Shown piece after piece: positions 4,682 through 44,768 of a stretch of DNA of 64,000 bases. Made by a program: the position numbers and the translations under genes. Under the pieces are notes generated by a model that worked only from the letters and a program-made list of their open reading frames with translations, was not told the DNA's origin and searched no databases. Origin of the DNA: Methanomicrobiales archaeon HGW-Methanomicrobiales-3 (GTDB taxonomy: Archaea; Halobacteriota; Methanomicrobia; Methanomicrobiales; Methanospirillaceae); assembly GCA_002839605.1 (NCBI GenBank), contig PGYK01000005.1, positions 62,001 through 126,000 on the forward strand, given 5' to 3'. Position 1 is the first letter of the stretch, and every line of letters begins with the position of its first letter.

Positions 4682-6814
4682 TCAGACCGCCCGAAGGATC
4701 ATGAGTGTGATATCGTCAAACTGCGGTGTATCGCCGGCAAAAGCGGTGATCCCGGCAAGGATCTCATCCATGATCTCCTGTGCCGGGCGGTTGCGGTTTT
4801 TCGTGATGATCGCAAACAACCGCTCTTCGCCAAACTCCTCTTCGGCTGCGTTGATAGCTTCTGTCACGCCGTCGGTATAGAGCACCAGCACATCACCCGG
4901 CTTCAGGTCCACCCTGACGGACTGGAGATCCACTTCATCGATGACCCCAAGGGCTATTCCTTTTGCCTTCAAGAGGCGGACGGTCGTTGACTCCCCCTGC
5001 AGGAGCAGCGGCGGGTTATGCCCGGCGTTGACATAGTCAAGCGTCATTGTACGGGAATCAAGGACAGCGTAGAAGAGGGTGACGAACATATTGGATTTTG
5101 AGTCCTCGTAGATCATCCGGTTGGCATGCGCAATCGAGAGCGCCGGGTCCGCGTTGACCAGCGTGCTTGCCCGGATAAGCGTTCTGGAGAGCGCCATGAA
5201 GAGGGCTGCCGGAACCCCCTTGCCGGACACGTCAGCGATAACGAGCCCCCACTGGCCGGTTGCAACCGGGATGAAATCATAGAAATCGCCGCCAACTTCG
5301 AGCGCGGGGACATTCTTTGCAACCAGTTCGATCCCGGCTATCTCCGGTGCCGAGTCGGGGAGGAAACTCTGCTGGATCCCTTGTGCGATCTCAAGCTCCT
5401 TTGCAAACCGCTCCTTTTCTGCAGTTGTGCGCTGGAGTTCATCCATATAGTTTTTGAGGTTTTCTGCCATCGTGTTGAACGAGTGCGCAAGATCCTCGAA
5501 CTCATCGCCGCTTGTCACCTGGACCCGGTGTTCCAGATCACCTGAACCGATCGCTTCGGACCCGCGCCGGAGTTCCTCGACCGGGCGGGTGATGATCCGG
5601 GCAAACAGGACTGAAATGATGGTCACGATGACAAACAGGATCACAAAGAGGGCAAAAAAGAGGGTCTTTGCCGCATTCATCTGCTGGGTTAAGTGGGTTT
5701 GGGCCTCACCGGTTGCCATGACGATCCGTGATCGGGTCTCTTCTGCCGGGGCGATGATGTCATCGACCGGCATGACGATCGCAAGGCTCCAGTTCACGCT
5801 GGATACCGGGGCATACGCGATATACTTCTCTTCACCGCCGAGGACAACCCGTGCCGTGCCGCTCCTGCCGGCGGTCATCTGTCGGGCAACCGTTTTGAGC
5901 CCTTCATTTTCTGATGCGAGCAGGTTGTCAGCGGTAAATGATTCGTCCCATTTCTCGTTACCCGTTGTGACACCGGGGCGGGAGATGACATTTCCCCGGC
6001 TGTCGATGAGCATGGCATACCCCCGCTCGCCAACCTGCGTATTGATGATCTGGGAGTTGATGGTCTCAAGTGTTACGTCTGTGCCGACAACCCAGAGGTA
6101 CCCGTCCCCACCGGTTCCCGCCAGTCGCGAACAGGTGACCATGAGCCCTTTTCCGCCGGCATCGACATAGGGGTCCGACCAGACAAGGTGACCTGCTTCC
6201 TGTGCCTGGATGTACCAGTCCCGTGTCCGCGGATCGTACGTGGACGGAACGCCATCGACCCATGGGGCAACCCAGAGGATCCCGGAGCCGGTCCCGATAT
6301 AGGCCTGGGTGAGGCGGGGGTCGGATGCCAGCATCGGATGCATCAGGTCATCGGTCCGTAAGAGCGCTGATAATTCATCTGCCACCAATTCCCGGCTTAC
6401 CCCGGGTGCAAGGATGTAGACCGAGGAATGGCCCGGGTCTTTTGGGCGTTCGCGCTGGGAATAGAGCTCGCGTGTTGCAGGAGACGCTGGTCGTTCCTGG
6501 ATTGTCCGCACAAAGCCTGCAAGGGTGTCCATCTCGGAAGACACCTGTAAAAAGACCACGTTGCTGATGTCGGCCTGGTCCCTGGCAAGCCGGAGCAGCG
6601 ATGATTCGGCATTTGCTTCCAGTGCCGAGGTGCTGTCGGATACGGCCCGGGTTCCCAGCTGGTCGCTGCTCTTCTGGGCATAGAATCCCATATCGCTCAT
6701 GGTCGAGAATGCCATAAAGCCGACAATGCCGAGGGCTGCCATCGATATCGAGAGAAAGACCAGGAGGATCTTGGCCCTGACCGTGAGACGCTGCCATGAC
6801 CGTGGACTCTTCAT
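4682..6814 (-). CDS. Membrane sensor with dCache, HAMP and SpoIIE-type PP2C phosphatase
   Basis: A 710-aa signalling protein. There is a membrane helix near residues 16-38 and a large extracellular dCache-like sensor to about 380 (YIGTGSGILWVAPW, PRTRDWYIQA and YVDAGGKGLMVT are typical). A second helix lies near 385-408, with a HAMP domain (ARIITRPVEELRRGSEAIGSGDLEHRV) and a short coiled coil to about 480. The SpoIIE/PP2C phosphatase domain runs to the end: GGDFYDF from 508, ADVSGKGVPAALF around 527, NAGHNPPLL, YTDGVTEA and FDDITLM with metal-binding Asp700 and Asp701. The likely role is ligand-controlled Ser/Thr dephosphorylation, as in RsbU-type partner switching. No anti-sigma-like kinase or STAS protein is nearby, so the target is unknown. 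Confidence 0.93.
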   Translation of the reverse strand: MKSPRSWQRLTVRAKILLVFLSISMAALGIVGFMAFSTMSDMGFYAQKSSDQLGTRAVSDSTSALEANAESSLLRLARDQADISNVVFLQVSSEMDTLAGFVRTIQERPASPATRELYSQRERPKDPGHSSVYILAPGVSRELVADELSALLRTDDLMHPMLASDPRLTQAYIGTGSGILWVAPWVDGVPSTYDPRTRDWYIQAQEAGHLVWSDPYVDAGGKGLMVTCSRLAGTGGDGYLWVVGTDVTLETINSQIINTQVGERGYAMLIDSRGNVISRPGVTTGNEKWDESFTADNLLASENEGLKTVARQMTAGRSGTARVVLGGEEKYIAYAPVSSVNWSLAIVMPVDDIIAPAEETRSRIVMATGEAQTHLTQQMNAAKTLFFALFVILFVIVTIISVLFARIITRPVEELRRGSEAIGSGDLEHRVQVTSGDEFEDLAHSFNTMAENLKNYMDELQRTTAEKERFAKELEIAQGIQQSFLPDSAPEIAGIELVAKNVPALEVGGDFYDFIPVATGQWGLVIADVSGKGVPAALFMALSRTLIRASTLVNADPALSIAHANRMIYEDSKSNMFVTLFYAVLDSRTMTLDYVNAGHNPPLLLQGESTTVRLLKAKGIALGVIDEVDLQSVRVDLKPGDVLVLYTDGVTEAINAAEEEFGEERLFAIITKNRNRPAQEIMDEILAGITAFAGDTPQFDDITLMILRAV

Positions 6815-15129: not shown

Positions 15130-16221
15130 TCAGAAATTTGCCTCGTCAGACTGTGCCGGGTTATACCGCCCGGCCGGAACCGGAGTCTGAACCGGGACCG
15201 GAACGGCAGTCGGGGCCGGGGTCACCACAGGTTCATCCTCCTGTCCCGGGAGGTGCGAGTGGGTATCGCTGCCCGGGAGGAGAATCCGGTGTGCTTCATC
15301 TTCCGTGCAGTCAGCGCCGATCTTCTGGCAGTAGGCAAGAGATGCATTCTTTGCGGCCGGGTTGGGTGGCCAGACCGCGTCACCGCCCTGTGTTTTCTTT
15401 CCCAGGTATTCGGCATACCGGTAGGCATGGATGAAACTCAGCGAGGGGATGGTCTTCTGGAGATACCCGATGGTGATGCTCCCGGTCCGGTCTGAACCGA
15501 GAACGCAGTGGTAGTAGATGAGGCGCTTCTTCCCGGACGGGTCCTTTTCATCCATGAGCGTGATGATCTGGTCAATGCGACCGGAATAACTGCAGGTATT
15601 GCCAACATCCGCATCGATGGTATCTTTGCATTGCTGATCGAGATGAGGGCAGAATGCGAAAGCAGATGAGATGAGGTTTCCAGCCTGCCCATTGACGGAT
15701 CCTCCGGCAAGCGGGGCTGAACAGGTGCTTTTGACGCCCCCGAACTCGCGGAGCAGGACATCAAACTCCTGGGAATTGATCTCGCCGTGATCAAGAAGGC
15801 TGATATCGATGATCCGGTAATCGTCCAGATTGAAATTTTGCATATCACGGATGAGCGCGGCTTGTTTGCTGTCAGGGAAATAGGCCGGGGCTGACGATGA
15901 CTTTTTGTTCTGCATCATCGTGTTTAGTTCATCGTAGGCAAAACGCCAGTCTGACTGGTTCATGCAGTTGCCTGACTGCCCGGTACCGTTCCGGACGATG
16001 AGGGGCAATGGTCCCCGCACCAGGAGATTGCCGGTCGATTCTGCATAGTCGACCACGACAGGGCCGGCTAGCTGGGCACGGTTTGATTCCTCGAGGTTGT
16101 AGATCTTCAGGCAGCAGGTCCCGTCCGGGGCCGCAGGGGTCTCATAGCAGGAGAATGCACTGGCTGATGTGGCGAGCAGGACAAGGCCGATGAGAAAAAA
16201 GGAGATGCGGTATGAGTTCAT
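15130..16221 (-). CDS. Secreted protein with tyrosine/dual-specificity phosphatase signature
   Basis: A 363-aa protein with a signal peptide (residues 1-22, ending SASAF). The ATG at 16221 is chosen because the signal peptide begins there. The active-site loop HCVLGSDRTGSIT (Cys239, Arg245) fits the HCx5R(S/T) signature of cysteine-dependent phosphatases. A helical segment follows as in DSPs. There are about ten other cysteines, consistent with disulfides outside the cell. The C-terminus carries a Pro/Thr/Val linker and ends YNPAQSDEANF after LPGSDTHSHLP, a tail shared with the thaumatin-like protein at 27070-28308. Substrates could be phosphoproteins, inositol phosphates or lipids. It is cotranscribed with the small Cys-rich protein upstream (13-nt gap). 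Confidence 0.75.
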   Translation of the reverse strand: MNSYRISFFLIGLVLLATSASAFSCYETPAAPDGTCCLKIYNLEESNRAQLAGPVVVDYAESTGNLLVRGPLPLIVRNGTGQSGNCMNQSDWRFAYDELNTMMQNKKSSSAPAYFPDSKQAALIRDMQNFNLDDYRIIDISLLDHGEINSQEFDVLLREFGGVKSTCSAPLAGGSVNGQAGNLISSAFAFCPHLDQQCKDTIDADVGNTCSYSGRIDQIITLMDEKDPSGKKRLIYYHCVLGSDRTGSITIGYLQKTIPSLSFIHAYRYAEYLGKKTQGGDAVWPPNPAAKNASLAYCQKIGADCTEDEAHRILLPGSDTHSHLPGQEDEPVVTPAPTAVPVPVQTPVPAGRYNPAQSDEANF

Positions 16222-16234
16222 GGGACCTCGCATT

Positions 16235-16480
16235 TTAACAAGCCAGATCACAATGGCTCCGGCATTCGAACGGGTTCGGATCATAGTTGCAGTTGAAGAG
16301 GCAGTTTTTGCACATGAGATTGGCTGCATTGTCCGGCGGCTGCAACGCGGAACCCTCACGGGCCGGAAGTTCGATTACAAGATAATATCCCCCTCCAATG
16401 ATAGTTCCAAGAAGGCCTAGGCAGAACAGGAACAGTACGAGCCGGCCGAGCGGGGCTCCTGAATTTTTATTTGTTTCCAT
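16235..16480 (-). CDS. Small membrane protein with cysteine-rich outer tail (81 aa)
   Basis: The start METNKNSGAPLGRL at 16480 follows ggggggaaaatgca. A membrane helix covers residues 13-35. The C-terminal about 25 residues carry six cysteines in the pattern CxxCxxxCx8-9CxxxCxxxC (LMCKNCLFNCNYDPNPFECRSHCDLAC). The tail probably faces outward and could be disulfide-bonded or bind metal. It stops 13 nt before the secreted phosphatase-like gene and so probably works with it. No family is recognised. Confidence 0.6.
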   Translation of the reverse strand: METNKNSGAPLGRLVLFLFCLGLLGTIIGGGYYLVIELPAREGSALQPPDNAANLMCKNCLFNCNYDPNPFECRSHCDLAC

Positions 16481-16743
16481 TGCATTTTCCCCCCGGAACA
16501 CCGGGTAACAATAGTTACTTGAGACCGTGACTCTAAAAACCGCGTGAACAGGGAAAATAATCGCCGGATATTTTCCATGTCCCGGGAACAACCCCCATGC
16601 CGGGGGCAATTGAGAACAGCCCTAAAAAAATCCTGCACAGGTATCCACGGTACCGGATGAGCATCCTTATCTTTTCCGTTTTCCCAATTGATCCTGAGTG
16701 CAGGTGTAAAGACACCCCCCGAGCACTGCAACCCAAAGGCCCG

Positions 16744-18843
16744 GTGATTATAATCAAAAGAACATGGATCTGCCAGCTCATTCTCATCATCGTCATCCTT
16801 GGTGCAGCAGCAGCGGCCGGCTCAATGCTCATCCATGCCAGCCAGCCGGTCCGTATCGGGGTCCTCCTCCCGATGACCGGCGATATCGATGCAAGAGAGC
16901 CGCTCGAATGGGCACAGGAGAACATCAACCGGGCTGGAGGTATCGGGGGAAGGCCGGTTGAACTCGTGTACCGGGACACAGGCACCGGCGATACCGTCAC
17001 CATGGCACAGGAACTGCTCGCTGACGACTCCATAAGGATCGTCATCGGCCCGCCAACCAGCGATGACGTCTTCCTGCTGGCACCGGAGTTCATTAAAAAA
17101 GAGAAGATCCTCATCAGCCCGTTTGCAACGTCCGGCGACATCATCCGGGCCTTTGGCAAAAAAGGGTATTTCTGGCGTACAACACAGGGTGACGTGGCGC
17201 AGGTAAAAGTGATAATCACCAAGATGAAGGAAAAAGGGGTCAGCCGGGTTGCGCTCCTTACCGAGAACTCAACCTATGGCAAAACATTCTATGACTGGAC
17301 CGGGTTTTTTGTCACCGAGTATGGTCTGGAACTTGCGTCGATCCGGCAGTTCGAACCCGCAACCGGGGTAACGGAAGCAGATATTGCCGCAGTCTTAAAT
17401 GCCGATCCGGAATATCTCATCGTCGCCTGCGGACCGGAAGATGCTGCGACCATCAAAAAAGCCATTGACCGGTCCAAAAAACCCGTCCGGTTGTTCTTTA
17501 CCGATGCCGCAGCCTCCCCGGTTCTCGTAACCCTGCTCGGCGAAGCAGCAGAAGGTATCGAGGGGACATCGCCAACCGCAGATCCCACGACCGGCTTTAC
17601 CGTTGCCTACCGCGAGAAATTCAACGAGTCTCCTGCGGATTATGCGGCCCCGATCTATGATGCACTTCTCATTGCAGCCTATACTACCGCACGACAGGAT
17701 GCGGTGCGTTTTGAATCACCGGCCGATGCGATCCGGGCCGTGGTCTACGGTTCCGGCACGCAGAAAGGCTGGGATACACAGGAAGCGCACGAGACTATTC
17801 TCGCGCTTCGTGCGGGCCAGACACCGGCCATCAGCGGGGCAAGCGGACCGCTCGATTTCGATGCAGAATTTGGGGTGGACCCGCTGGCAACGTACTACTC
17901 CCACTGGGTAATTGAGGACGGCACATTCCGTACCATTGATGTGCTGGGTTCAGCAAAGTCCGGAACCGCCGGCGCCAGCGGGGAGTCGGTTTCAAGGACC
18001 CGTGCCTCGGGAACGCTCATGGCACTAACCGAAACAAGCGTGGTGCACTATGATCCCCCAACGGAACGAACGGATTTCCGGGCGGTCATCGTGGGTCCAT
18101 CGCAGGGCTGGAAGAATTACCGGCACCAGTCCGATGCTCTTGCCGTCTATTCGATGCTCCGGGAGAATGGCGTTCCGGACGAGCACATCATCCTGATGAT
18201 CTACGATGATGTCCCGAACTCCAGGGAGAACCCGTTGCGGGGTGACATCCACAATATGCCCAAAGGAGAAAATCTCCGGGCCACTGCTGACGTGGATTAT
18301 ACCGGAGACCAGGTGACTGCGGCCACGTTCCGGCAGGTTCTTTTAGGAGAACCGACCGCTGATATCCCGATGGTCCTTGACGGAACACCCGGAACCGATG
18401 TCTTTGTCTATATCGCAAGCCACGGCACCCCGGGCGGGATCGTCTTCTCTGGCAAATCGCCCTCCCTGACCACCCAAAACTTTACGGAGATCACGGACAC
18501 GATGTACGAAGAGGGCAGGTACCGCCAGATCGTCTTCTTCGTTGATACCTGCTTTGGGGAGAGCATTGCCACAAATGCCACGGCAAAGGGCCTCCTGTAT
18601 TTCACCGGAGCTGCTGCCAGCGAACCCTCGCATGGGGCAGTGTATGACCTCGACATCCGGCAGTGGCTTTCAGACGAGTTTACGGCAAGCATGTTAAACG
18701 CGATCCGGGCGGACCCCGATATCACGTTCAGGGAACTGTACATAACAACCTACGAGAAGGTGACCGGCTCGCATGTCCGGATGCTGAATACGGAAAATTT
18801 CGGGAGTATCGATCTTCCCGTGCGGAGGTTCCTCCAGCCATGA
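16744..18843 (+). CDS. ANF-receptor-type binding domain fused to C13 (legumain/Gpi8-like) peptidase
   Basis: About 699 aa from a GTG at 16744, chosen because a membrane anchor (residues 9-31) starts there; the frame is open back to 16597. Residues about 37-420 form a type-1 periplasmic-binding fold of the branched-chain amino acid/ANF receptor kind (VRIGVLLPMTGDIDAREPLEWAQENINRAGG; PTSDDVFLLAPEF; ENSTYGKTFYDW; FTDAAASPVL). Residues about 480-690 are a clan CD, C13-type peptidase. It has AVYSMLRENGVPDEHIILMIYDD, the catalytic His560 in YIASHGTPGG and Cys603 in FFVDTCFGES. Legumains and GPI-transamidases cleave or transfer after Asn/Asp. The likely role is an anchored, ligand-gated protease on the cell surface. 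The stop overlaps the next start by 4 nt (ATGA). Confidence 0.85.
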   Translation: MIIIKRTWICQLILIIVILGAAAAAGSMLIHASQPVRIGVLLPMTGDIDAREPLEWAQENINRAGGIGGRPVELVYRDTGTGDTVTMAQELLADDSIRIVIGPPTSDDVFLLAPEFIKKEKILISPFATSGDIIRAFGKKGYFWRTTQGDVAQVKVIITKMKEKGVSRVALLTENSTYGKTFYDWTGFFVTEYGLELASIRQFEPATGVTEADIAAVLNADPEYLIVACGPEDAATIKKAIDRSKKPVRLFFTDAAASPVLVTLLGEAAEGIEGTSPTADPTTGFTVAYREKFNESPADYAAPIYDALLIAAYTTARQDAVRFESPADAIRAVVYGSGTQKGWDTQEAHETILALRAGQTPAISGASGPLDFDAEFGVDPLATYYSHWVIEDGTFRTIDVLGSAKSGTAGASGESVSRTRASGTLMALTETSVVHYDPPTERTDFRAVIVGPSQGWKNYRHQSDALAVYSMLRENGVPDEHIILMIYDDVPNSRENPLRGDIHNMPKGENLRATADVDYTGDQVTAATFRQVLLGEPTADIPMVLDGTPGTDVFVYIASHGTPGGIVFSGKSPSLTTQNFTEITDTMYEEGRYRQIVFFVDTCFGESIATNATAKGLLYFTGAAASEPSHGAVYDLDIRQWLSDEFTASMLNAIRADPDITFRELYITTYEKVTGSHVRMLNTENFGSIDLPVRRFLQP

Positions 18844-25889: not shown

Positions 25890-26951
25890 TCACATATCGC
25901 AGCAATAGCAGGTCGTATCGGACAGGATCTTGGAGTTCTTGATCCACGAGCAGGTCCCGAACTTGTCCCACGGGTTGATGATCGTGGTCTTGTCAAGCTT
26001 CCCCATCTTCTGCATGTGCTTAAGGTCCGCGACAACCTTCCAGACATAATTGATCGGCCCGTAACTCTTTGTCCCGTCGCCGACCGGGTACACGCCCGGG
26101 TCGTCAGCTGTGACGTAGATGTCGGGCACGCTGCCAATGAACCGGGGGATTTCGGCATCCACGAACACGTAATCCTTCTTCCCGTCGGTGAAGACTTTCA
26201 GGGAGGCATCCGGTACCTCTTCGATGACACGGATGCCGGTGGACTCATACCCGAGATCCTCAAAGACCAGCAGCGCGACATCGTACCCCTCGCGGGCAAG
26301 CAGGTTCACGAGCAGCAGGCTTTTTTCGTCCGAGTCGCCTGCCTTGTCGTAGATGACCTCGACCGGGTACTTGCGTTTCGGTGACGGATTCTCGACATGG
26401 GGAATCTGCTGGACAAAGGCAACGATCAGTTCAAGGTACTCGTCATCGGAGAGGTACCCCCCGTTCCTGTACCGGGCACTCCGGAGCTGTTTGAGGACAT
26501 CGGAATAGAGTTCCTCCATTGCCGGGTCGGACTCAAAGGAATCGATATACTCCCTGACTTCAGCAGGATTCATGGAGCTTGCCGGAAGATCGATCTTCAT
26601 CTGCCGGGCCCCGTAATAGACCGACATGTTGACCGGCACCCGGAACGTGTACTCCTGCGGACCGGTGAACGGGGCATAGTGGAAGGTGAAGGTCCGGTGG
26701 CCGACCCGGCTCACGTCCCCGACCGGGACAATAAAATTTTTGTTCACTGCCGCGGGAGCAGGTTCTTTTGCCGCGGGGGTTGTCACTACCGGTTCCGGTT
26801 CTTCTTCGTCCACGGGTTCTGCCGGTGCCGTGGTTGCCACCGGTGCAACCGCACCGGGAAAGCCGGGCGGGTTGATGATAACCTGGACACAGCCGCACAG
26901 GAATACCAGGATACAGAGAATGACAAGGCAGGAGAACCCGGCGAACTTCAT
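25890..26951 (-). CDS. Lipoprotein with transglutaminase-like domain, catalytic Cys replaced
   Basis: A 353-aa protein. The signal peptide ends in the lipobox LCGC (Cys21). A Pro/Ala/Glu-rich linker follows, then a beta-rich region (GDVSRVGHRTFTFHYAPFTGPQEYTF). At about 160-270 a transglutaminase-like core appears: LELIVAFVQQIPHV and YDKAGDSDEKSLLLVNLLAREGYDVALLVF. In this family the motif is usually GDCxDKS; here the nucleophile position is Ser207. I see no convincing His partner, though VFVDAEIPR supplies the Asp strand. The C-terminus has a Cys-rich end (CSWIKN...CYCCDM). It is probably a noncatalytic binding domain on the cell surface. Confidence 0.78.
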   Translation of the reverse strand: MKFAGFSCLVILCILVFLCGCVQVIINPPGFPGAVAPVATTAPAEPVDEEEPEPVVTTPAAKEPAPAAVNKNFIVPVGDVSRVGHRTFTFHYAPFTGPQEYTFRVPVNMSVYYGARQMKIDLPASSMNPAEVREYIDSFESDPAMEELYSDVLKQLRSARYRNGGYLSDDEYLELIVAFVQQIPHVENPSPKRKYPVEVIYDKAGDSDEKSLLLVNLLAREGYDVALLVFEDLGYESTGIRVIEEVPDASLKVFTDGKKDYVFVDAEIPRFIGSVPDIYVTADDPGVYPVGDGTKSYGPINYVWKVVADLKHMQKMGKLDKTTIINPWDKFGTCSWIKNSKILSDTTCYCCDM

Positions 26952-27069
26952 AACGAACCAATATTTGTCGTTCTTTTGTATTTTATCCTTGGTTTTTGTT
27001 TCGACGGATAATTACGGCACCCTTAATACATGCCGAGAATGATGTGTTGTCCGGTACAGGTTTTTCATC

Positions 27070-28308
27070 ATGAAGAAATTGGTTTTTTTATGTCTCGTGT
27101 TCTTTGCGGTTATACTGACCATCCCTGCCAACGCTGCGGATCATACCATCCAGTGGCAGAACCATTGCCCCTATGAAGTGTCAGTTGTCATCATCGGAGG
27201 TCTGCAATACACCAACCCGTTCGATGGGAAAGTCTACGGCGCCAGCCAGTGTATGCCCCCCGACCAAACATGCCAACCGAACACTAAATGCCCCTACACG
27301 GCCTGTGGGGAAGGAAACAAGAACAAATGCGATCAGGGGGCCCCTCTCGTTGACAACGGGGGATTCATCCTTGAGGCAGACACACCCGGCGCAAAAAATA
27401 CCCATACCAGCACGGTGCCGAAGTTCTGGCAGGGTTCATTCCAGCCCCGGACGAACTGCCATTTTGACGCAGACAAAAATTATGTCTGCGATTATGAGCC
27501 GCATACCTGCCGTGCATACCAGGACGGACAGGGAAAGGTCGAATGCGGCGGACATCAGATCCAGGATGCCACCAAAGGAGAGATCAACTTCGATGAGAAT
27601 GGCGTGGATACCTATGATGTCAGTGCCGTTGATGGTTTCAACATCCCGATCACGATCGAACTCGTACCGGGTACAGGTTCTGCAGAGGGACTTGCACCGG
27701 TTGAATATGCCTGCACAAAAGCGGGGACGAATTTTGACCTGCGGGACCTGGTTGGAACGGGTGACTGGAAAAACTTAGATGCCTCGAAACTCCTCATTAA
27801 AAATGCAGCCAGCACAACAATCGCCGTGCGGAGCGCCTGTTCCTATGCATCTGCCCTGAACCACAAGAACAACGATCCCCACTTCGATGAGAAGGATTAT
27901 CTTACAAACTCCACCTGTTGCAAACTCCCCTTTGGCTCAGCCCAGGATTTCCAGAAGAACGGGAATATGAAATGCGATCCCCAGACCTGGCCATCGGACA
28001 TCAACACGGCTGCCTTCTTCAAACATTTCCTGCCTACAGCCTACAGCTATGCCTACGACGACCACACATCCACCTATACCTGCAAGAACAAGGATGAGGA
28101 TACCCTGACGGCGTATATTGTCACGTTCTGTGGTGCCAATGAAGGCCCACGCGTAGCCCTGCCGGGAAGTGACACGCATTCTCATCTTCCGGACCTGTCC
28201 CCGACACCCCTTCCGACCCCGGTTGCGACCCAAACTCCGGTACCCACCCAGACACCGGTGCCGCAAACCCCCTATAACCCGGCAAAATCCGGCGATGTAA
28301 ACTTCTAA
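27070..28308 (+). CDS. Secreted thaumatin-like protein with shared C-terminal tail
   Basis: A 412-aa protein with a signal peptide (residues 1-22, PANAAD). Thaumatin/PR-5 landmarks occur in order: NHCPYEVSVVIIGG, GGFILEADTP, FWQGSFQPRTNCHFD, CDYEPHTCRAYQDGQGKVECGG, GVDTYDVSAVDGFNIPITIELVP, CCKLPFG, FFKHFLPTAYSYAYDDHTSTYTCKN and YIVTFCG. Sixteen or more cysteines suggest the multi-disulfide fold. The C-terminus has a Pro/Thr repeat linker after LPGSDTHSHLP and ends YNPAKSGDVNF, nearly the same tail as the phosphatase-like protein at 15130-16221. Thaumatin-fold proteins bind glucans or act as antifungals in eukaryotes; the archaeal function is unknown. It is a single gene ending at a T8 run. 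Confidence 0.82.
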   Translation: MKKLVFLCLVFFAVILTIPANAADHTIQWQNHCPYEVSVVIIGGLQYTNPFDGKVYGASQCMPPDQTCQPNTKCPYTACGEGNKNKCDQGAPLVDNGGFILEADTPGAKNTHTSTVPKFWQGSFQPRTNCHFDADKNYVCDYEPHTCRAYQDGQGKVECGGHQIQDATKGEINFDENGVDTYDVSAVDGFNIPITIELVPGTGSAEGLAPVEYACTKAGTNFDLRDLVGTGDWKNLDASKLLIKNAASTTIAVRSACSYASALNHKNNDPHFDEKDYLTNSTCCKLPFGSAQDFQKNGNMKCDPQTWPSDINTAAFFKHFLPTAYSYAYDDHTSTYTCKNKDEDTLTAYIVTFCGANEGPRVALPGSDTHSHLPDLSPTPLPTPVATQTPVPTQTPVPQTPYNPAKSGDVNF

Positions 28309-44152: not shown

Positions 44153-44395
44153 ATGGAAGTAGTCACCCTCTCCTCCAAGGGCCAGATCGTCATCCCCGTA
44201 AAAGTCCGGAAAAAACTCTCGCTCAAAGAAGGCGACTCGCTCGTACTCGTTGAGGAGAACGATGCAATCCGGCTCCAGCCGCTTGTCCATCTTTCAGAAC
44301 TCTGGGGCGTTGACCAGGTGAAAAATTCCGGAACAGCACTCAAAGAATTACGCAAGGAGTGGGACGATGAGCTTGAGAAGAAAACTGCTCTTTGA
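44153..44395 (+). CDS. AbrB/MazE-type antitoxin
   Basis: An 80-aa swapped-hairpin AbrB protein (MEVVTLSSKGQIVIPVKVRKKLSLKEGDSLVLVEENDAIRL). The acidic/basic C-terminus (LKELRKEWDDELEKK) binds the toxin. It pairs with the PIN toxin that starts 29 nt before its stop. It represses the operon by family precedent. Confidence 0.9.
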   Translation: MEVVTLSSKGQIVIPVKVRKKLSLKEGDSLVLVEENDAIRLQPLVHLSELWGVDQVKNSGTALKELRKEWDDELEKKTAL

Positions 44396-44768
44396 CACCC
44401 ATGCGTTCCTCGCATTTTTCAACCGCGAAGCAGGATCGGAGACAATCAAAAATAATTTTGATGCAGTCTTGAGCGGCGATACGGAAGGATTTGTCGCAAC
44501 GATCACGCTCACCGAGCTCGCGTACATCTACACCCGGAATGCCGGTGCAGATGTGGCCCGGCTCCGGGTCATGCAGATCCGGGGCTCGAGCCTGAACATC
44601 ATCCCGCTGGTACCGGAGATCGCAATCGAAGCCGGCCTGCTTAAGCAGCCGGGTATATCGATTGCCGATGCGATCATTGCGGCATCGGCCAGGTCTGTGG
44701 GTGCTGCAGTAGTTACGAACGATCCGCATTTTTCTGCCATGGGTGTCGAGGTGTCAGGATATCCATGA
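44367..44768 (+). CDS. VapC PIN-domain toxin
   Basis: A 133-aa PIN nuclease. FDTHAFLAFFNRE has the first Asp, ITLTELAYI the Glu, SIADAIIAASA the third acidic residue and VTNDPHF the fourth. The start overlaps the AbrB-type antitoxin gene by 29 nt, giving a classic VapBC pair. The target RNA is unknown. Confidence 0.9.
   Translation: MSLRRKLLFDTHAFLAFFNREAGSETIKNNFDAVLSGDTEGFVATITLTELAYIYTRNAGADVARLRVMQIRGSSLNIIPLVPEIAIEAGLLKQPGISIADAIIAASARSVGAAVVTNDPHFSAMGVEVSGYP

Follow-up and report, generated by a model that had tools for sequence, protein, structure and literature searches.

The window analysed here is a 64,000-nucleotide stretch of a Methanomicrobiales assembly (contig PGYK01000005.1, positions 62,001 to 126,000). 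It carries a gene for a thaumatin-like protein, encoded divergently from a lipoprotein gene across a short intergenic region. A second gene in the window encodes an exported phosphatase-like protein that ends in the same C-terminal tail (Table 1). The first-pass annotation, made from the letters of the sequence, recognised the thaumatin-like protein but overlooked three features that we consider here: a cysteine-rich insertion, the tail and the lipoprotein neighbour.

Table 1. Features of the thaumatin-like locus and of the second tail-bearing gene, in window coordinates
Feature	Position	Strand	Description and basis
Second tail-bearing exported protein	15130..16221	-	CX5R phosphatase signature HCVLGSDRTG; sequence, family alignment
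C-terminal tail of the phosphatase-like protein, shared with the thaumatin	15133..15297	-	Alignment, profile
Partner lipoprotein	25890..26951	-	353 aa; lipobox LCGC (by eye), GDSDEKS, Cys-rich end
Divergent intergenic region	26952..27069	.	118 bp; conserved block TATTTnAnnnTTGGnnTTT at 26979-26997
Thaumatin-like protein gene	27070..28308	+	412 aa, stop included in the coordinates; ORF, Pfam, PDB and fold searches
N-terminal export signal	27070..27135	+	MKK, then a hydrophobic stretch; cleavage near A22, by visual judgement
Cysteine-rich insertion	27205..27357	+	C61, C68, C74, C79, C87; columns conserved in relatives
PF00314 thaumatin domain	27394..28131	+	R127, E171, D183, D188, D330/D331; Pfam, alignments
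Conserved C-terminal tail	28141..28305	+	ExxRxxLPGxxxHxH, Pro/Thr linker, terminal (R)YNPxxSGxxNF; alignment, profile

The product of 27070-28308 is confirmed as an exported member of the thaumatin family, truly related to the plant defence protein of that name. It matches the Pfam thaumatin profile PF00314 with an E-value of 1.6e-22 (80.7 bits, where the cut-off is 27.4). This is the search that the first-pass annotation had proposed as a check on its assignment, and the match spans residues 109-354, beyond the short motifs from which the family had been named. Those motifs were all found in the order claimed, with the VTFC end at residues 351-354, and the cysteines described as numerous came to 18 in the 412-aa protein. 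The match is the only one to PF00314 in a profile search of the 2.59-Mb genome. By sequence, the best relatives in the PDB are plant thaumatin-like proteins (3zs3, 4e-15; 2ahn, 3.7e-13), and the 3zs3 match rises to 4.4e-38 when 16 archaeal relatives are combined into a profile. A fold search with an AlphaFold model (pLDDT 70.8, pTM 0.72) returned Mal d 2 and Pru av 2 (Z 21.7, 218 residues aligned, rmsd 2.9-3.0), thaumatin (Z about 20) and the bacterial thaumatin-like protein 7p22 from Amycolatopsis (Z 18.8), which has the same fold. TLXI (Z 13.1) and GH64 beta-1,3-glucanases (Z 10.9-12.7) scored lower. Family membership is thus backed by the profile, by the fold and by conserved cleft residues.

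Plant PR-5 proteins (Mal d 2, Pru av 2, osmotin, zeamatin) share with the archaeal protein the profile, the fold (Z 19-22), the order of motifs and five cleft residues. The archaeal counterparts, R127, E171, D183, D188 and D330/D331, align with residues of 3zs3, and we take them to be the REDDD set of the plant acidic cleft. All 16 archaeal relatives have the first four unchanged; D331 is kept in 15 and D330 in 11 of the 15 relatives that reach those positions. The archaeal protein differs from the plant proteins in having 18 rather than 16 cysteines, the cysteine-rich insertion, and a 55-residue tail past the end of the plant chain. The 18 cysteines fall in columns that are mostly conserved among the relatives; for thaumatins, PMC13148976 gives 16 cysteines in 8 disulfides. 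The insertion follows the first strands and precedes the GGF strand, at a point where plant thaumatins pass almost directly to their GGF/GGR strand. It lies outside the PF00314 match and is skipped in the 3zs3 and 2ahn alignments, and each of its five cysteines is kept in 15-16 of the 16 archaeal relatives. In the export signal region, residues 2-16 form a helix in the AlphaFold model. The protein is a real, unusual member of the thaumatin family.

The Streptomyces protein WP_331728241.1 is 29.8% identical over 60% of the query and has the domain without insertion or tail; on the tree it sits on a very long branch, which demonstrates no close kinship. The NCBIfam model LegT (NF045527) matches locally (residues 65-235, 7e-12), but its 44.6 bits lie far under the cut-off of 1200, and the archaeal protein is not a member.

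Close relatives occur in Methanoregula and other Methanomicrobiales assemblies. The claim that thaumatin domains are rare in archaea holds within the order, where PF00314 exceeds its cut-off in 19 of 232 genomes, all of one family, and in a phylum-wide draw, where it is present in 6 of 392 genomes, all of that same family. A twentieth genome of the order (G117) has a sub-threshold match with an internal stop. Contamination or eukaryotic DNA was rejected because the gene lies on a 252,865-bp contig among ordinary archaeal genes such as that of the thermosome, recurs in many related genomes, and keeps its divergent neighbour in 8 of the 9 genomes where this can be tested. No link of this genome to a eukaryotic host was found, and a paper on Pelomyxa symbionts (PMC10579272) contains none of the five terms looked for in it. 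Viral or plasmid carriage was also rejected: there was no phage match and no confirmed viral relative of the thaumatin-like protein, and a single related plasmid protein, the Streptomyces one.

We built a tree of the thaumatin domain, which includes one non-archaeal sequence on a very long branch. Eight tail-bearing thaumatins form a supported group (98/98). The thaumatins of G140 and G188 pair at 100/100, with no supported order relative to the eight-member group, and the tail as a label requires two changes on the tree (one change in 38% of bootstrap trees). G140 and G188 belong to different genera, and their lipoproteins pair with moderate support (81/86). The pairing of both products between G188 and G140 (loci L033 and L034) may reflect joint transfer of the two genes from one genus to another.

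Thaumatin genes at other loci vary in architecture. Large thaumatins of another genus (L019, L020, L021 and L023) have ELPATGA as their very last residues, which resembles an LPxTG end but has no membrane helix after it; L020, the one of them that was scanned, bears PKD domains. At L007 (1117-2646, -) the thaumatin is fused to an SdrD_B domain (PF17210, 1.9e-25). The thaumatin genes at L017 (868-2496, -) and L023 each have one interrupting TGA, from either pseudogene formation or assembly error.

The tail begins after VTFC. Fourteen tails align readily, nine from thaumatins and five from phosphatase-like proteins, with E, R, LPG, two H and the terminal P and F invariant and a Pro/Thr-rich linker within. 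A profile search of the order found strong matches (above 50 bits) at 17 places in 12 of 232 genomes, namely 10 thaumatins and 7 phosphatase-like proteins. When the profile was built from the nine thaumatin tails only, the five phosphatase tails scored 61.5-80.8 bits, compared with maxima of 14.8 bits in 2000 shuffles and 36.6 bits in 2000 shuffles that kept the linker. In the reverse test, with a phosphatase-tail profile and 3600 shuffles of each kind, the thaumatin tails scored 33.1-75.8 bits against maxima of 12.0 and 34.7 bits, so that two of the nine (33.1 and 34.1 bits) are not separated from linker-preserving shuffles in this direction. Against 1142 neighbourhood ORFs, the thaumatin-tail profile returned the nine tail thaumatins, the phosphatase-like protein of the window and one weak further phosphatase, and then noise.

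Weaker tail matches include membrane-anchored phosphatase paralogs that keep a terminal motif. Four of 18 weak rows were read and are such phosphatases; the other 14 have E-values of 2.5e-4 or worse. No further protein family with the tail was found among the places read for two terminal-motif patterns in 39 genomes of the genus. The first pattern occurred at 29 places, where the long open frames were thaumatins and phosphatase-like proteins only. The second occurred at 46 places; eight loci read by script gave four in-frame matches, all in frames of 32 codons or fewer, while several of the remaining places are known tail genes and the rest were judged from the DNA alone. Thaumatins of sister lineages lack the tail and have other ends instead, such as a lipobox of their own (G192) or, elsewhere, SdrD_B or PKD domains, which shows that the domain can do without the tail.

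A tail common to unrelated exported proteins suggests a shared way of placing proteins at the cell surface. Archaeosortase (PGF-CTERM type) substrates likewise carry a C-terminal element on otherwise unrelated exported proteins. The archaeosortase-type signal is a terminal hydrophobic helix followed by basic residues, whereas the tail is soluble, Pro/Thr-rich and ends in NF. This identity was rejected, as the 14 aligned tails have no hydrophobic segment in their last 55 residues. Alternatively, the tail could be a mere flexible stalk from an old gene fusion, with no part in sorting or docking, and its co-occurrence with the lipoprotein could stem from shared ancestry. This explanation seems to us somewhat unlikely. 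It fits a tail that is mostly Pro/Thr-rich and carriers confined to two genera of one family, but outside the linker E, R, LPG, HxH and the terminal P and F are near-invariant and the profile scores need them. Nor is there homogenisation of thaumatin and phosphatase tails within genomes, where their identity (44, 56 and 59%) compares with a between-genome mean of 50%.

In the phosphatase-like proteins the HCX5R loop is present, with H240, C241, G244, D246, R247, T248 and G249 invariant in nine of nine aligned family members. Pfam scores stay below the cut-offs in those of four members that match: 14.2-28.6 bits for DSPc (cut-off 33.5) and 13.7-18.2 bits for Y_phosphatase3 (cut-off 22.2). The best solved match of the family profile is DUSP10 (E 0.0019). 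Directly upstream of the phosphatase gene, 16235-16480 (-) encodes an 81-aa membrane protein with a cysteine-rich end. An N-terminus resembling this protein opens the membrane-anchored phosphatases, and at L120 small ORFs resembling it (4693-4935 and 5300-5551) precede a lipoprotein-phosphatase pair. Divergent from the phosphatase gene, 16597-18843 (+) encodes a periplasmic-binding domain (PF13458) fused to a legumain/GPI8-like Peptidase_C13 domain (PF01650, 1.5e-51). Across the order, PF01650 is found in 35 of 232 genomes. Its place beside the tail-bearing phosphatase gene made the C13 peptidase an attractive candidate for processing the tail. As a general partner it was rejected: only 5 of the 12 tail genomes have C13, compared with 30 of the other 220 (p 0.02), and it is absent from G140, whose genome is a single contig and encodes both tail proteins. 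Elsewhere in the window, overlapping AbrB-like and PIN-like ORFs at 44153-44765 (+) resemble a toxin-antitoxin pair, as judged from sequence.

Of the 232 genomes of the order, 11 have an ortholog of the divergent lipoprotein, defined by a score above 500 bits, and the seven orthologs that were aligned are 61-83% identical to the 25890-26951 product. An ortholog is present in 10 of 12 tail genomes and in 1 of 220 others (Fisher p 7e-15), and within the genus in 9 of 11 tail genomes and 1 of 28 others (Fisher p 2.4e-6), both p-values being too small because shared ancestry is ignored. It is the divergent neighbour of the tail thaumatin in eight of the nine testable genomes (G000, G140, G166, G172, G180, G181, G188 and G190; the exception is G175), with a start-to-start spacing of 106-124 bp in the seven genomes measured. 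G176, which is 70% complete and in which no thaumatin was found, has the ortholog directly before a tail-bearing phosphatase gene. G187 has a tail protein without the ortholog, and G192 has the ortholog without the tail. No ortholog was found in G165, where the contig begins inside the thaumatin gene and adjacency is untestable. The conserved intergenic block probably belongs to the leader of the lipoprotein gene; it is also upstream of that gene in G175, where the gene is on another contig. As a common promoter box or regulon signal of tail genes the block was rejected, since it is not upstream of the nine phosphatase genes examined.

More distant paralogs of the lipoprotein give some match in 200 of 232 genomes of the order. 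The six that we read have a cysteine followed by a histidine about 28 residues on (GDCDEKS, H), a motif that we presume to be transglutaminase-like. All 11 orthologs have S or T in place of this cysteine and Y or L in place of the histidine; the product of 25890-26951 has GDSDEKS and Y. The orthologs therefore lack the residue pair expected of a transglutaminase-like Cys/His enzyme. Library matches to that superfamily were weak (Transglut_core, E 0.084, in one of seven members; Acetyltransf_2, E 0.017, in one), comparison with the PDB gave no meaningful match, and the structure model (pLDDT 36) is too poor for use.

The reading that we prefer, and hold with about even confidence, is that of an exported Methanoregula protein whose glycan-binding thaumatin domain is displayed on the envelope and held there by the tail. 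The signal peptide would send the protein outside the cell, where the disulfide-rich domain, with its acidic cleft intact, would bind glycan. The Pro/Thr stalk and conserved tail would retain the protein in or on the envelope, possibly through contact with the divergently encoded lipoprotein, and the domain would thus face outward for adhesion or ligand capture. Counting against this reading are the weaker reverse test of the tail profiles, the tail-less thaumatins of sister lineages and the genomes in which tail and lipoprotein do not go together. The first-pass suggestion that the protein may bind polysaccharide is plausible. Many members of the thaumatin family, though not all, bind beta-1,3-glucan. 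A review places this binding in the cleft (PMC13148976). A second paper names the REDDD motif of thaumatins and describes yeast SUN proteins, whose thaumatin-like folds serve glucan binding without that motif (PMC13251364). The motif itself is thus no proof of glucan binding.

The acidic cleft might instead act catalytically, as in a beta-1,3-glucanase or other glycoside hydrolase. The cleft residues are conserved and GH64 enzymes also have a thaumatin-like fold, but these are larger catalytic proteins with just 13-16% identity in the fold alignment, and we know of no use that a hydrogenotrophic methanogen would have for glucan sugars. Glucanase activity of fungal thaumatin-like proteins is mentioned in PMC13148976; for the archaeal protein we regard it as distinctly improbable. 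An enzyme inhibitor, to which the TLXI fold match would point, is very unlikely, TLXI being much smaller (148 aligned residues) and ranked under other thaumatin-like relatives.

The suggestion of an anti-competitor protein found no evidence in its favour; the conserved tail and lipoprotein partner suggest envelope retention rather than release. Like osmotin-type plant proteins, a released antimicrobial would permeabilise or starve fungi or protists that compete with the archaeon, and it would agree with the export-type N-terminus and with the presence of osmotin, zeamatin and PR-5 proteins among the closest solved relatives. We nevertheless consider it quite unlikely: the tail shared with the phosphatase-like protein suggests an envelope location, as does the neighbouring lipoprotein, the N-terminus of the G192 relative marks that protein too as a lipoprotein, and no toxin or immunity gene was recognised by eye beside the thaumatin gene. 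Envelope display could also take a more specific form, which we think unlikely. The tail would be a new archaeal docking tag, and the lipoprotein without Cys and His a membrane-held receptor that displays both the thaumatin lectin and the phosphatase non-covalently, as opposed to the covalent archaeosortase route.

Thaumatins are described from plants, fungi and animals in PMC13148976, in whose main text the word 'archaea' has no occurrences. Among the papers listed in searches of the open-access literature, none was seen to describe an archaeal thaumatin or the shared tail. The range of the thaumatin family is widened by an archaeal branch at family level that has a cysteine-rich insertion of its own, and archaeal thaumatins offer an anaerobic, non-eukaryotic system for asking which ligand the cleft takes. 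The tail and its degenerate lipoprotein partner are potentially the more interesting part. Together they are a directly testable candidate for non-covalent protein display in methanogens.
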